Origin: Actinobaculum suis
Lineage (GTDB): Bacteria; Actinomycetota; Actinomycetes; Actinomycetales; Actinomycetaceae
DNA length: 64,000 nucleotides
NCBI RefSeq assembly: GCF_900102025.1
Contig: NZ_FNAU01000006.1
Span: 1 to 64,000 of the forward strand
Reading direction: 5' to 3'
Both the position numbers and the translations under genes were made by a program. The notes beneath the pieces were generated by a model, which ran no database searches, was not told the DNA's origin, and saw only the letters and a program-made list of their open reading frames with translations. Below are positions 23,182 through 51,904 of the stretch, in pieces (positions within the stretch are counted from its first letter, which is position 1; every line of letters begins with the position of its first letter).

Positions 23182-25260
23182 ATGGCAGTTGATACTCGTA
23201 TCGAACGCGCAGAAAAACCCTTCGAGGTTATCTCCGACTACACGCCTTCGGGCGATCAGCCCCACGCTATTGCGGAGCTGGCGGAGAGGATCAATAACGG
23301 AGAAAAGGACGTGGTGCTCCTTGGGGCTACCGGCACCGGTAAATCTGCGACTGCCGCTTGGCTAGTGGAAAAGTTACAGCGGCCCACGCTCATTATGGAG
23401 CCGAATAAGACTTTGGCGGCGCAAATGGCAGCCGAATTTCGGGAGCTACTGCCCAATAATGCCGTTGAATACTTTGTTTCCTACTATGACTATTACCAAC
23501 CTGAAGCCTACGTTCCGCAAACCGATACTTTTATCGAAAAGGATTCTTCGATTAACGATGAAGTGGAACGTCTGCGGCATTCGGCAACCAATTCGCTGCT
23601 CACGCGCCGCGATACGGTAGTAGTAGCTTCCGTTTCTTGTATTTATGGCTTGGGTACCCCGCAAGAATATGTAGACCGCATGGTGCAATTGCGTGTGGGG
23701 GATAGGATCGACCGCGATGAGTTGCTGAAGCTCTTCGTCGGCATGCAATATACGCGCAATGATATCGAGTTCACGCGCGGTACTTTCCGGGTGCGGGGCG
23801 ATACCGTGGAAATCATTCCCGTCTACGAAGAACTAGCAATTCGGATCGAGTTCTTTGGCGACGAAATCGACGCGATCTCCACTTTACATCCGCTCACCGG
23901 TAATAAGATCGCCGATACCGACACCGCCCATATTTTCCCCGCTTCGCACTATGTGGCCGGGCCGGAAAGAATGGAACGCGCTATCGCTTCCATAGAGGCG
24001 GAACTAGAGGAACGGCTCGCCGAGCTCAAGTCGCAAAATAAACTTCTAGAGGCGCAAAGGCTGGAGATGCGCACTACTTACGATCTCGAAATGATGCGCA
24101 ATATCGGCACCTGTTCTGGAATTGAGAACTATTCGCGGCATATTGATGGGCGCGGGCCGGGCACTCCTCCAAATACTTTGCTGGACTATTTCCCGGACGA
24201 TTTTCTGCTTATTATCGACGAATCGCATGTTACCGTCCCCCAAATTGGGGCGATGTATGAAGGGGATATGTCCCGTAAACGCACCCTGGTGGAATACGGT
24301 TTCCGCCTGCCTTCTGCCATGGATAACCGGCCGCTCAAGTGGGAGGAGTTCCAGGAACGCATCGGACAAACCGTCTATCTTTCTGCGACTCCTGGCAAAT
24401 ATGAACTGGAACGTTCCGATGGTTACGTGGAACAGATTATTCGCCCCACCGGTTTGGTAGATCCGCTCATCCGAGTCAAACCAACGGAAGGGCAAATCGA
24501 CGATTTGCTCGAAGAAATCCGCGTGCGGGCCGCGAAACAGGAACGCGTGCTGGTTACCACTTTGACCAAGAAAATGGCGGAAGACCTTACCGATTACCTG
24601 TCGGAACGGGATGTGCGGGTGGAGTATTTGCATTCTGATGTGGATACTTTGCGCCGCGTGGAGTTGCTGCGGCAGTTGCGGTTGGGCGAATTTGATGTAC
24701 TGGTAGGTATTAATCTTTTGCGTGAAGGTTTGGATTTGCCCGAAGTTTCCTTGGTTGCGATTCTCGACGCCGATAAACAGGGCTTCTTGCGGTCAACGAC
24801 GTCGTTGATTCAAACCATCGGCCGGGCGGCCCGCAATGTTTCGGGCGAGGTCCACATGTACGCCGATACGATCACGCCGAATATGCAAGAAGCGATCGAA
24901 GAAACTAACCGGCGCCGCGAAAAGCAAATCGCTTACAACAAAGAACACGGGATCGATCCGCAACCTTTGCGCAAGAAGATTTCCGATGTGACCGATATGC
25001 TCGCCCGCGAGGACGTAGATACCGAAACGCTCCTGGCCGGTGGATATCGCACCGAACCCGAATACGCGAAGGGGCGTGCCCCCGCCCGAGAAATCGCGCG
25101 GGCCGAGGGCGCGGGGCAGTTGCGGGAAATGATCAACGAACTGAGTTTGCAAATGCATGCGGCGGCTGAACAATTACAGTTCGAACTCGCCGCCCGCTAC
25201 CGGGACGAAATTAAAGATCTCAAATCAGAACTCTGGCACGCCGAACAGGCGCAAAAATAG
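23182..25260 (+). CDS. uvrB: Excinuclease ABC subunit B
   Basis: The damage-verifying helicase of nucleotide excision repair. GATGTGKS (Walker A) lies near residue 47, the beta-hairpin [14 protein letters not shown] near 97, IIDESHVT holds the DEAD-like motif, and QTIGRAARN is motif VI. The C-terminal UVR domain ([20 protein letters not shown]) contacts UvrC. Length with the ATG at 23182 is 692 residues, usual for the family. An ATG three codons upstream is also possible. An SOS box overlaps the start region. Confidence 0.96.
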
Positions 25261-25309
25261 AGAGCTAATTAGCATTTTCGGTGCGGGCATGTGTGTAGGC
25301 CTTTCGGGT

Positions 25310-25420
25310 AAGGTGGTGCGCCGGGAGGGGAGTACTTCCAGGAAATATCGGTTCGTCATCACGGCGCTAGCTAGATCATGCCGGATCACGCTTGCGCCCG
25401 GACCGAGACCGCACCGCACA
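25310..25420 (+). promoter_or_regulatory. Candidate yybP-ykoY manganese riboswitch
   Basis: Upstream of the TerC-family gene lies GGGGAGTA (25327-25334), CGTCA (25354-25358) and GAGACC (25405-25410). This ordered set resembles the conserved loops of the yybP-ykoY Mn2+ aptamer. GGTGCG near 25314 can pair with CGCACC at 25410-25415 to close a P1-like stem. TerC proteins are classic targets of this riboswitch. The match was made by eye, so confidence is moderate. Confidence 0.5.
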
Positions 25421-25523
25421 TTTCGCCAGGTGAGGCCCGGTAAGGGGCATACCCAAAGAAAGTCGGGATTGGTGGAAGGAGACCTTCGGTTCATTTAGCT
25501 CAAGCTCTACCGGAGGATTCATA

Positions 25524-26564
25524 GTGATCTCTCATATTGCTACGACCGTTGCTACCGAGGCCCCGGATATGGTGGTCCACCCGTGGGAATGGATCGTGCT
25601 CTCAGTGCTCGTGTGCGGTCTACTTGCCTTTGACCTGATGGGGCATATCCGCAAACCACATGAGCCGACGATGAAAGAATCGGCAAAGTGGTTCGCGTTC
25701 TACGTTTCCGTGGCCATACTGTTTGGCTTCTACGTGTGGTTGCAGCACGGAGGCGGCTTCGCGATGGAGTACTTCTCCGCCTACGCGCTCGAAGAATCTT
25801 TGTCCATGGACAATATTTTCGTCTTCATCATTATTATGGCGTCCTTTGCGGTGCCGCGTGTACTGCAACAAAAAGTACTGTTCTGGGGAATCATCATTGC
25901 CCTCGTGTTGCGGCTCGTCTTTATTTTGCTGGGAGCCGCTATCGTTTCCCGCTTCGCCTGGGTGTTCTTCTTGTTCGGAGCCTTCCTGATCTACACGGCT
26001 ATCGGGCAAGCCCGGCAGGGGATCGCCGGGGATGAAAACGAGGAATATAAAGAAAACGTGCTGGTGCGCATCACTCGCAAGATCTTCCCGGTTACCAATG
26101 AATACCACGGAGATCATGCCATCGTTCGCATTAATGGTAAGCGGCATCTAACGCCCTACCTGTTGTGCATCGTGGCGATTGGCGCCGCTGATTTCATGTT
26201 CGCTTTGGATTCCATTCCCGCTTCCTTCGGAGTAACCCAAGAGCCCTACATTATTTTCGCGGCTAACGCTTTTGCGCTAATGGGCCTGCGGCAACTCTTC
26301 TTCCTCATTGACGGCCTGCTGGAACGGCTCGTCTACCTGCATTATGGATTAGCCGCAATCCTCGGCTTTATTGGCTTGAAGCTCTTCCTGGAAGCTTTCC
26401 ATACGTATGGCATGTTGGAGTTTATTCCGGCCCCTTCGCCGGCTGGTTCGCTCATTTTGATCCTCGTGATCCTGCTTATTACCGTGGTGGCTTCGGTAGT
26501 CAGATCCCGAAAGCTAGCTCGCCAACAAGCAGCTGAAGAAGAAGACGAAGCTACGGAAAGCTAG
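25524..26564 (+). CDS. TerC/Alx-family integral membrane protein
   Basis: A 346-residue membrane protein of the TerC group, which contains likely Mn2+ exporters and partners of secreted metalloenzymes. About eight to nine hydrophobic segments alternate with short loops. Two acidic intramembrane signatures typical of the family are visible: EESLSMDNIFVF near residue 92 and DFMFALDSIPASFG near 218. The GTG start at 25524 follows ggagg at a seven-base distance. The C-terminus is an acidic tail (EEEDEATES). The upstream leader contains a candidate manganese riboswitch, which supports a metal-related role. Confidence 0.88.
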   Translation: MISHIATTVATEAPDMVVHPWEWIVLSVLVCGLLAFDLMGHIRKPHEPTMKESAKWFAFYVSVAILFGFYVWLQHGGGFAMEYFSAYALEESLSMDNIFVFIIIMASFAVPRVLQQKVLFWGIIIALVLRLVFILLGAAIVSRFAWVFFLFGAFLIYTAIGQARQGIAGDENEEYKENVLVRITRKIFPVTNEYHGDHAIVRINGKRHLTPYLLCIVAIGAADFMFALDSIPASFGVTQEPYIIFAANAFALMGLRQLFFLIDGLLERLVYLHYGLAAILGFIGLKLFLEAFHTYGMLEFIPAPSPAGSLILILVILLITVVASVVRSRKLARQQAAEEEDEATES

Positions 26565-26714: not shown

Positions 26715-27671
26715 TTATGGCCGTTTAGCGAGCCGGCGGGCAATGATTGCGCATACCAGGATTTGGAGCTGGTGGAAGACGACGACGGGTACCGTCAGCG
26801 GGGCAACGATGGGCCCGGGGAAAATAGCTTTGGCCATGGGTAGCCCGGTGGCCAAGGATTTTTTCGATCCGCACATGAGCACCACTATGCGATCTTCGGT
26901 CGATAGTTTTGCCAGGCCCGCAGTCCACCAGGTAAGGCCGAGCATGACCGCGAGCATCACGCAACACAGCAGGCTGAGTACCACGATCGTCCCCAGGGTG
27001 ACTCCCTTCCACGCGCCTTCTGCGGTGGCGTTGAGAACGGAAGAAAAGACGATGAGGATAATCGAGGTGTTATCTACCGTGCGTACTAGCTTGGGGTGGG
27101 CGCGCCAAAAATTACCGACGAATGGTTGTAGGCATTGCCCGAGTATGAACGGCAAAAGCAGCTTGAGGAGCACGGAGGTAAGACCGCCGCCGCTAGCCCC
27201 ACCCACATCCAGGAAGAGCATCACGAGCAGAGGCGTGAGGAACATGCCCAAAATATTTGAGATCGTGGCAGAGGTGACGGCTGCCGCCACATTTCCGCGG
27301 GCGATGGACACCATGGTTACGGAGGACTGGATCGTGGAAGGCAGAAGCGAAAGATAGAGAAAACCGAGCGCGAAACCTTCGCCCAAGAAAGGTGCGGTGA
27401 GGTGCCCCAACCCAAAACCGACGAGCGGAAAGAACACATAGGTCGAAATAAGCACCAAACCGTGTAGGCGTACATTGCGTAAACCGCGTAGCACATCGCT
27501 AGTTCGCAACCGCATTCCATACACGAAGAACACCGTGGCAACGGCCAGGTCGCCCACAATTTCCAAGACGTGGCGGGGCCCGGCAGGCGCATGAATAAGC
27601 AAGCCGGCTACCAAAGCTACCAAAATACCGGTTACTAGCGGATCTGGCCGCCACCTTAGAAGTCTCTTCAT
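26715..27671 (-). CDS. YfeH-like bile acid:sodium symporter family transporter
   Basis: A 318-residue protein with about ten hydrophobic segments, similar along its length to E. coli YfeH of the SBF-like group. Recognisable stretches are FVYGMRL, FLYLSLLPSTIQSSV (the family's crossover region), SATISNILG and FCGSKK-like VLMCGSKKSLATGLPMA. The ATG at 27671 gives the same N-terminus as YfeH (MKRLLRWRPDP); an in-frame ATG lies at 27686. Substrate is unknown. It is convergent with terC and divergent from uvrA. Confidence 0.82.
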   Translation of the reverse strand: MKRLLRWRPDPLVTGILVALVAGLLIHAPAGPRHVLEIVGDLAVATVFFVYGMRLRTSDVLRGLRNVRLHGLVLISTYVFFPLVGFGLGHLTAPFLGEGFALGFLYLSLLPSTIQSSVTMVSIARGNVAAAVTSATISNILGMFLTPLLVMLFLDVGGASGGGLTSVLLKLLLPFILGQCLQPFVGNFWRAHPKLVRTVDNTSIILIVFSSVLNATAEGAWKGVTLGTIVVLSLLCCVMLAVMLGLTWWTAGLAKLSTEDRIVVLMCGSKKSLATGLPMAKAIFPGPIVAPLTVPVVVFHQLQILVCAIIARRLAKRP

Positions 27672-27737
27672 AACGCTTAGCAACATTACCAGCGTGCAGC
27701 GCGGTTTCTTACCGTAACCGTTTGCCTCTCCGCCCAC

Positions 27738-51112: not shown

Positions 51113-51904
51113 GTGAAAAGCGCGGACAATACGGAAACTGCTGCCAGCAACCCGCCGGTGGTGATTGCGATTGATGGGCCGAGTGGCGCCGGGAAATCTA
51201 CCGCCGCCAAAGCCGTGGCACGGCGCCTAGGTATTGGGTATCTGGACACGGGTGCCATGTACCGGGCTGCCACCTGGTGGGTTTTGCACAAAAATATTTC
51301 TTTAACGCCCGGCGAGATCGACGACGCCGCAGTAACCGCTGCCGTGCGCGAAATGGATCTGCAAATGCCGTTGGATCCGGACCAGCAAACAATCCGCCTG
51401 GCGGGGGAAGATATAACGCAGGCGATTCGCAGTTCGGAGATTGCTCGGAAGGTTTCGGCGCTGTCTACCAATTTGGAGGTGCGGGATATACTCGTGGCCC
51501 GGCAAAAAGCAATTATCGCCGGGGCGCGGCCGGGGATTGTGGCGGAAGGCCGCGATATTACTACCGTGGTGGCGCCCGAGGCCCAAGTCCGGATCTTATT
51601 GACGGCTTCCGCCCAAGCTCGTTTGGCCCGCCGCGCTGCCCAAACCCGAGGCAAAGTGGATGCGCAAGCCCTGGCACAAACCCGGCAAGAAGTAGTGGGC
51701 CGGGACGAAAAAGATTCCACCGTAGTGAATTTCACCGATCCAGAACCTGGTGTGGAATTGCTCGATACCAGCGATCTGAATATTGAGCAGGTTGTAGATA
51801 AAATAATGGCTTTGGTACCGCTGGACGGTTTGGTGCCGCTGGAAAAAACCGATACGAAGTACGCGGAACGTGCAGCGGCACAGCAGACGCACAAAGTACA
51901 GTGA
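51113..51904 (+). CDS. cmk: Cytidylate kinase
   Basis: Phosphorylates CMP and dCMP. The P-loop GPSGAGKSTAAKAVARRLG and YLDTGAMYRA are classic; GRDITTVVAPEA and RDEKDSTV follow near the lid. At 263 residues it is somewhat longer than the usual 225-235, with a charged C-terminal tail. The GTG start sits just after tyrA. The tyrA-cmk-der string is common in actinobacteria. Confidence 0.94.
   Translation: MKSADNTETAASNPPVVIAIDGPSGAGKSTAAKAVARRLGIGYLDTGAMYRAATWWVLHKNISLTPGEIDDAAVTAAVREMDLQMPLDPDQQTIRLAGEDITQAIRSSEIARKVSALSTNLEVRDILVARQKAIIAGARPGIVAEGRDITTVVAPEAQVRILLTASAQARLARRAAQTRGKVDAQALAQTRQEVVGRDEKDSTVVNFTDPEPGVELLDTSDLNIEQVVDKIMALVPLDGLVPLEKTDTKYAERAAAQQTHKVQ

Follow-up and report, generated by a model that had tools for sequence, protein, structure and literature searches.

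A probable alx-like yybP-ykoY riboswitch ahead of terC in Actinobaculum suis

The DNA analysed here, positions 1 to 64,000 of contig NZ_FNAU01000006.1 from Actinobaculum suis (hereafter the window), carries upstream of a terC gene a leader that was described from its letters as a candidate manganese riboswitch; the question is whether this leader belongs to the yybP-ykoY class and, if it does, in which form and with what effect on the gene. The gene encodes a 346 aa TerC/Alx-family membrane protein with a GTG start, which scores 368.6 bits against NCBIfam TIGR03718 R_switched_Alx (cut-off 246.4) as well as 163.4 bits against Pfam TerC; a cation-homeostasis gene of the kind typically controlled by yybP-ykoY elements, as the preliminary description had proposed, does therefore lie directly 3′ of the leader. 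It is the single TerC of the 2.2 Mb source genome, in which GDT1 has no match. An SBF-like transporter gene on the − strand (26715–27737) is convergent to terC.

Conservation of the leader among relatives

TerC homologues were collected by protein from the family of the window, with a match in 145 of 151 genomes, and the 30 best-scoring TerC matches, chosen by protein alone and including the window and several near-duplicates, supplied the loci for comparison. The element is present upstream of terC in all 30 of these best-scoring family loci, as GGGGAGTA in 29 and as GGGAGTA in L006, and an AGACC or AGACT end follows further 3′ in all 30 leaders. A MAFFT alignment of 18 leaders (A1) was made with the window (L001) and L002 held out and 10 near-duplicate or odd leaders unused; from it RNAalifold returned a structure of 26 pairs, identical to the one drawn by hand, which runs in the order P1.1, L1, P1.2, an unpaired linker, P3.1, L3, P3.2, P4. 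Two covariance models were built: R1 comes from A1, while R2 comes from A3, whose rows were found and aligned using R1 but include no sequence from the window's family. Judged by these relatives, the RNA from 25320 to 25492 is very probably a yybP-ykoY riboswitch of the alx-like form that lacks P2, with the following parts and neighbours:

25309–25314, + strand: −10-like box TAAGGT, predicted transcript start ~25320–25322
25320–25492, + strand: putative aptamer as a whole (covariance-model match; R1 64.1 bits, R2 52.3 bits)
25323–25328, + strand: P1.1 5′ strand GGGAGG, the predicted switch helix, partner 25483–25488 (R1 alignment, covariation)
25329–25334, + strand: L1 5′ strand GGAGTA (identical in 119/119 aligned matches)
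25335–25339, + strand: P1.2 5′ strand CTTCC, partner GGAAG at 25474–25478 (R1 alignment)
25340–25347, + strand: junction linker AGGAAATA, where P2 would be (GGAGTA-to-L3 spacing)
25348–25355, + strand: P3.1 5′ strand TCGGTTCG, partner CGGACCGA at 25399–25406 (R1 alignment)
25356–25362, + strand: L3 loop TCATCAC (CA at positions 2–3 in 118/119 matches)
25363–25398, + strand: P3.2 hairpin, GGCGC 25363–25367 with GCGCC 25394–25398, insert of ~29 nt (R1 alignment)
25408–25473, + strand: P4 arm, base ACC/GGT, insert of ~58 nt (R1 alignment)
25474–25478, + strand: P1.2 3′ strand GGAAG (R1 alignment)
25479–25482, + strand: L1 3′ strand GAGA, which opens the true GAGACC (final AGA in 119/119 matches)
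25483–25490, + strand: CCTTCGGT, P1.1 3′ strand and predicted anti-Shine-Dalgarno strand (helix with 25509–25516)
25509–25516, + strand: ACCGGAGG, Shine-Dalgarno region, sequestered in the predicted OFF state (complementarity, folds)
25524–26564, + strand: TerC/Alx-family membrane protein gene (Pfam TerC)

All five helices (P1.1, P1.2, P3.1, P3.2 and P4) are found with covariation; the first pair of P1.2, for example, is U-A, C-G or G-C among relatives. Compensatory change affects 12 of the 26 pairs of A1, a number equalled by 1 of 500 shuffles; three further measures were reached by none of the 500, namely the pairing cells (95.9% against 87.1% in shuffles), the double-change cells (41 against 11.4) and the covariation score (0.338 against 0.170), and the further pair types (30 against 25.3) were reached by 3. 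With slid partners, pairing in A1 drops to 35–57%. Double-change cells are also in excess in the alignments fitted to the covariance model, at 336 against 80.7 in shuffles for A2 (73 rows, training rows included) and 268 against 86.9 for A3 (46 rows). At 173 nt the aptamer of the window exceeds in length every other one of the 30 from the family (89–146 nt); the extra length sits in the P3.2 loop and in P4.

The ordered motifs on which the candidate was based are present: GGGGAGTA at 25327–25334, CGTCA at 25354–25358 and then GAGACC. The pattern of GGGGAGTA followed by CGTCA within 12–40 nt occurs once in the window, where shuffles predict 0.04; the 2.2 Mb genome holds 2 occurrences, and 1 of a reversed control pattern. 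GAGACC occurs twice, at 25405–25410 and 25479–25484, and the preliminary description chose the wrong copy; it is the second that takes part in the conserved closing helix. The GGTGCG/CGCACC stem proposed to close the structure fares likewise: its arms do occur (25315–25320 and 25410–25415), but the closing helix is P1.1. That stem was rejected as P1 because the window is the only one among the 30 family leaders to have both arms, because it is missing from the conserved structure and from the fold starting at 25320, and because its 5′ arm comes after the −10-like box but before the probable start of the transcript. A free fold from 25275 pairs CGCACC with a different copy of GGTGCG (25280–25285). 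The TAAGGT box would place the transcript start near 25320, leaving most of the proposed 5′ arm outside the transcript; 73 of 118 leaders have a TANNNT box 5–22 nt ahead of the aptamer, while such a box occurs in 23 of 936 control segments taken 100–300 nt upstream, which are mostly neighbouring coding DNA. Single-sequence folding energy is unremarkable (z of −0.77 for the fold from 25275 and −1.62 for that from 25320); the case consequently rests on comparison.

Junction, metal pocket and downstream genes

Between GGAGUA and L3 the window has 21 nt and E. coli alx 20; in E. coli mntP, where P2 is present, the gap is 33 nt. The distance is 18–25 nt in 118 of 119 aligned matches, the exception, L112, being misaligned there. 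P1.2, the linker and P3.1 fill the short stretch and P2 no longer fits, so that the P2 hairpin and four-way junction of the crystal structures are absent and the junction is three-way. P2 is not treated as defining, since E. coli alx is equally short and a three-way member is in print: a yybP-ykoY member in Streptococcus is described with a three-way junction in PMC9495176, the only paper that a literature search for manganese riboswitches with a three-way junction found, and the lack of P2 is accordingly not new. Two relatives, L112 and L032, appear from their RF00080 alignments to keep a P2 hairpin.

Solved members recognise Mn2+ through the N7 of an invariant adenosine in L3 (A41 in the L. 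lactis loop UCAAUUC, A48 in the X. oryzae loop ACAUACU), and a conserved A10, extruded from L1, packs against P3.1 (PMC6754395). Both loops have counterparts in the window: L1 is formed by GGAGUA and GAGA between P1.1 and P1.2, and L3 is the 7-nt UCAUCAC between P3.1 and P3.2, with an A at position 3 (A25358) that by alignment would be the discriminating adenosine. Because the model selected the matches, the invariance of these letters is partly circular: GGAGUA and AGA of L1 are kept in 119 of 119 aligned matches, and CA at L3 positions 2–3 in 118 (L112 is gapped), with positions 4–6 variable. L3 had been called divergent in the preliminary description, which holds against the Rfam consensus ACAUACU but not against the L. 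lactis loop or that of E. coli alx, UCAUUAC; the latter differs from UCAUCAC by one letter and is itself present in 7 of the 119 matches.

The relatives' leaders mostly precede terC. Among the TerC matches listed, at least 130 of 138 R1 matches in the family lie within 400 nt 5′ of TerC, and 130 of 150 listed TerC matches have an R1 match upstream; of the 20 without one, 10 come second in a tandem pair. Such tandem terC pairs, with the leader before the first copy only, were seen in G009, G041, G065, G084, G101, G124, G145 and three more genomes. The gene downstream of the 119 aligned matches is TerC in 99, a GDT1 cation/proton antiporter in 10 (three by Pfam, seven by a shared AELGDKSQL-like stretch), an Na/Ca exchanger in 2 (both tested), a P-type ATPase in 2 (read so, one tested) and an unnamed protein of ~280–290 aa in 4 (L110, L135, L151 and L156), proportions that are not a census, as L112, L113, L114, L118 and L121 entered via RF00080 matches. 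For the two unnamed proteins tested, those of L110 and L135, neither Pfam nor NCBIfam gives a match; the next gene in L209, an extended stretch around L110, encodes a phosphoglucose isomerase. The P-type cation ATPase preceded by the leader at L134/L213 and, by likeness of its start, at L144 is very long (1586 aa); the genes after the L158 and L161 leaders encode a GreA-like protein and V-type ATPase subunit D (1 of 119 each).

L3 segregates with the gene: 95 of the 99 leaders before TerC carry UCAnnnC and 4 carry CCA, whereas all 10 before GDT1 carry ACAnnnY. It is conceivable, if rather doubtful, that the Actinomycete leaders form two L3 subtypes that track the gene (UCAnnnC/CCA with TerC, ACAnnnY with GDT1), perhaps as distinct lineages, each adjusted to its own Mn2+ range or metal, in which the P2-less three-way junction would serve as a compact aptamer.

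Detection by covariance models and the silence of Rfam

The resemblance to yybP-ykoY put forward in the preliminary description is upheld by the conservation of structure in relatives, which is strong and extends to all 30 of the best-scoring family TerC loci, and by models made without the window. R1 finds the held-out window at 25320–25492 with 64.1 bits (E 2.6e-14) and the held-out L002 with 83.1 bits; R2 gives the window 52.3 bits, and scores the E. coli alx leader, which belongs to an accepted member of the class, at 39.5 bits (E 2.5e-8). E-values from both models are rough owing to a short calibration. R2 does not find the E. coli mntP leader, and among 36 (of 38) named TerC loci it matches 8 from Actinomycetaceae and 1 from Acidimicrobiia, with no match in the other 27, mainly from other phyla. 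Whole-genome searches with R1 and RF00080 relied on a loose first look; at E up to 0.01 R1 matched 132 of 151 family genomes, leaving 19 without a match, and 151 of 296 class genomes, and after this first look the match in the window was only partial (35.4 and 25.2 bits) in comparison with the direct search. R1 has no match at two Actinomycete TerC loci from a plasmid collection, L123 (Nonomuraea) and L124 (Nocardia), and a search of the leader against plasmids gave no match. A weak second R1 match in the window (51476–51559, 15.3 bits, E 0.14) was discarded as sequence without GGGGAGTA. The search of the source genome with R1 listed two further weak places, at 16.4 and 15.1 bits.

Rfam 15 is silent on the leader: over the whole window one tRNA is the single family above threshold, and 25200–25600 gives nothing at E up to 10, which leaves no other Rfam family as a candidate. 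The covariance search with RF00080 that had been suggested as a check thus returned no match, and the window falls below the gathering threshold of that family, which is a limit of detection and not a biological feature; however, the same model is weak on E. coli, giving the mntP leader (L128) 41.6 bits where 45 are required and omitting the alx leader (L127) at E up to 1, so its negative result says little. As paired elements the RF00080 model has a short P2, P3 and an arm like P4; it leaves GGGGAGUA unpaired, and GAGACC is not part of it. RF00080 lists nothing at E up to 10 for 17 of the 30 loci from the family; on 20 class loci it matches L121 alone (19.2 bits), a locus itself picked for its RF00080 match. 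In the loose whole-genome look none of the 151 genomes from the family or the 296 from the class has a match above the RF00080 threshold; matches below it occur in 24 family genomes (E up to 10) and 11 class genomes (E up to 0.01). At six loci (L032, L112, L113, L114, L118 and L121) RF00080, below threshold, and R1 match the same place; R1 gives L032 a weak score (17.7 bits, E 0.017), and the RF00080 match of L118 is missing from one of the RF00080 tables. The alx-like form, and with it the E. coli alx leader, escapes the current Rfam model.

The closest known likeness is indeed E. coli alx, a TerC-family gene annotated as a Mn(2+) exporter. Its leader, which R2 matches, shares with the window GGGGAGUA, GAGACC, a TerC/Alx gene and the lack of room for P2, but differs in the sequences of its helices, in its long P4 hairpin and in having 77 nt between match end and start codon, where the window has 31 nt. 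Canonical RF00080 members (L. lactis, X. oryzae, E. coli mntP) have in common with the window the letters of L1, a 7-nt L3 with the invariant A, the P1 and P3 legs and P4; they form a four-way junction with P2, whereas the window has a three-way junction without P2, an L3 that departs from the Rfam consensus ACAUACU and a score below Rfam 15 detection. Two more systems are likened by description: the leader of C. glutamicum cg2157, as another Actinomycete terC leader (PMC3890552), and the yybP-ykoY element of Streptococcus mgtA, which shares the three-way junction but precedes a Firmicute gene and is reported to activate transcription (PMC9495176).

Predicted switch, ligand and significance

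Control of terC is likely to be translational, with the element acting as an ON switch, if the folding models are followed. CCUUCGGU (25483–25490) is complementary to ACCGGAGG (25509–25516) over a perfect 8-bp helix, with one G-U, around the Shine-Dalgarno sequence, and the minimum-energy fold from 25320 contains both P3 and this blocking helix; P1.1 and the anti-Shine-Dalgarno helix are predicted to be mutually exclusive. Calculated without ligand, the forced aptamer fold has −73.0 kcal/mol and the blocking fold −78.2, the OFF state being lower by 5.2. In the proposed mechanism the two strands would pair in the absence of Mn2+ and block the ribosome; Mn2+ would dock L1 onto L3 and stabilise P1.1, which would free the Shine-Dalgarno sequence and turn TerC translation on. 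Across the 119 matches the best helix between the strand and downstream sequence averages 7.38 bp, against 6.33 for swapped members and 5.89 for shuffled DNA, and for the 40 members with unusual P1.1 3′ strands their own helix averages 6.2 bp against 5.5, a value that 0 of 1000 swaps reach. An anti-Shine-Dalgarno helix of ≥6 bp with a Shine-Dalgarno-like motif is found in 89 of the 119 matches, not in all.

By likeness to solved members, Mn2+ is quite probably the cellular ligand of the terC leader. That the same fold answers in the cell to another effector, whether another divalent metal or alkaline pH, is improbable: L3 positions 4–6 do vary, the three-way-junction member from Streptococcus is described as binding Ca2+ besides Mn2+ (PMC9495176), and alkalinity is linked to the E. 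coli mntP riboswitch in PMC9603457, but the leader retains the discriminator A together with the L1 letters, and TerC/Alx, the family of the gene, is one of metal homeostasis. Less probable still is a leader that is bound by a protein or stabilises the mRNA, a non-riboswitch whose yybP-ykoY likeness would be convergent; strong conservation by itself would suit a protein site too, but R2, made from Actinomycetes only, finds the E. coli alx leader, both metal-pocket loops agree with solved members, and several cation-transporter families lie downstream. A chance set of motifs and a stem in GC-rich intergenic DNA, for which the lack of an Rfam match and the ordinary fold energy might speak, can be dismissed, as it is already contradicted by the held-out covariance-model scores and by covariation against shuffles and slid partners.

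A manganese-responsive yybP-ykoY leader here would fit what is recorded for the class: E. coli alx and mntP carry Mn-sensing riboswitches (PMC9603457), C. glutamicum cg2157 (terC) has a yybP-ykoY leader of 49.13 bits with an older RF00080 and RNA-seq support (PMC3890552), C. pseudotuberculosis has one of 49.16 bits (PMC3890534), and the motif is among those present in >75% of the taxonomic groups surveyed in PMC3766115. Given these corynebacterial and survey reports, Actinomycete terC leaders are not a new class; nor does the phrase for a separate "terC" RNA motif occur in the 20 papers listed, of 320, in the literature search, and no such family stands among the Rfam matches. The leader of the window would join an already known riboswitch class as an ordinary regulatory element that was correctly spotted; of wider interest is the gap that it points to in the annotation of Actinomycetes. 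The segregation of L3 type with gene family offers a simple testable idea on the tuning of metal or affinity. The broader use of the finding is practical and concerns annotation: since RF00080 overlooks the alx-like form, Mn2+ riboswitches are probably under-annotated across Actinomycetes.
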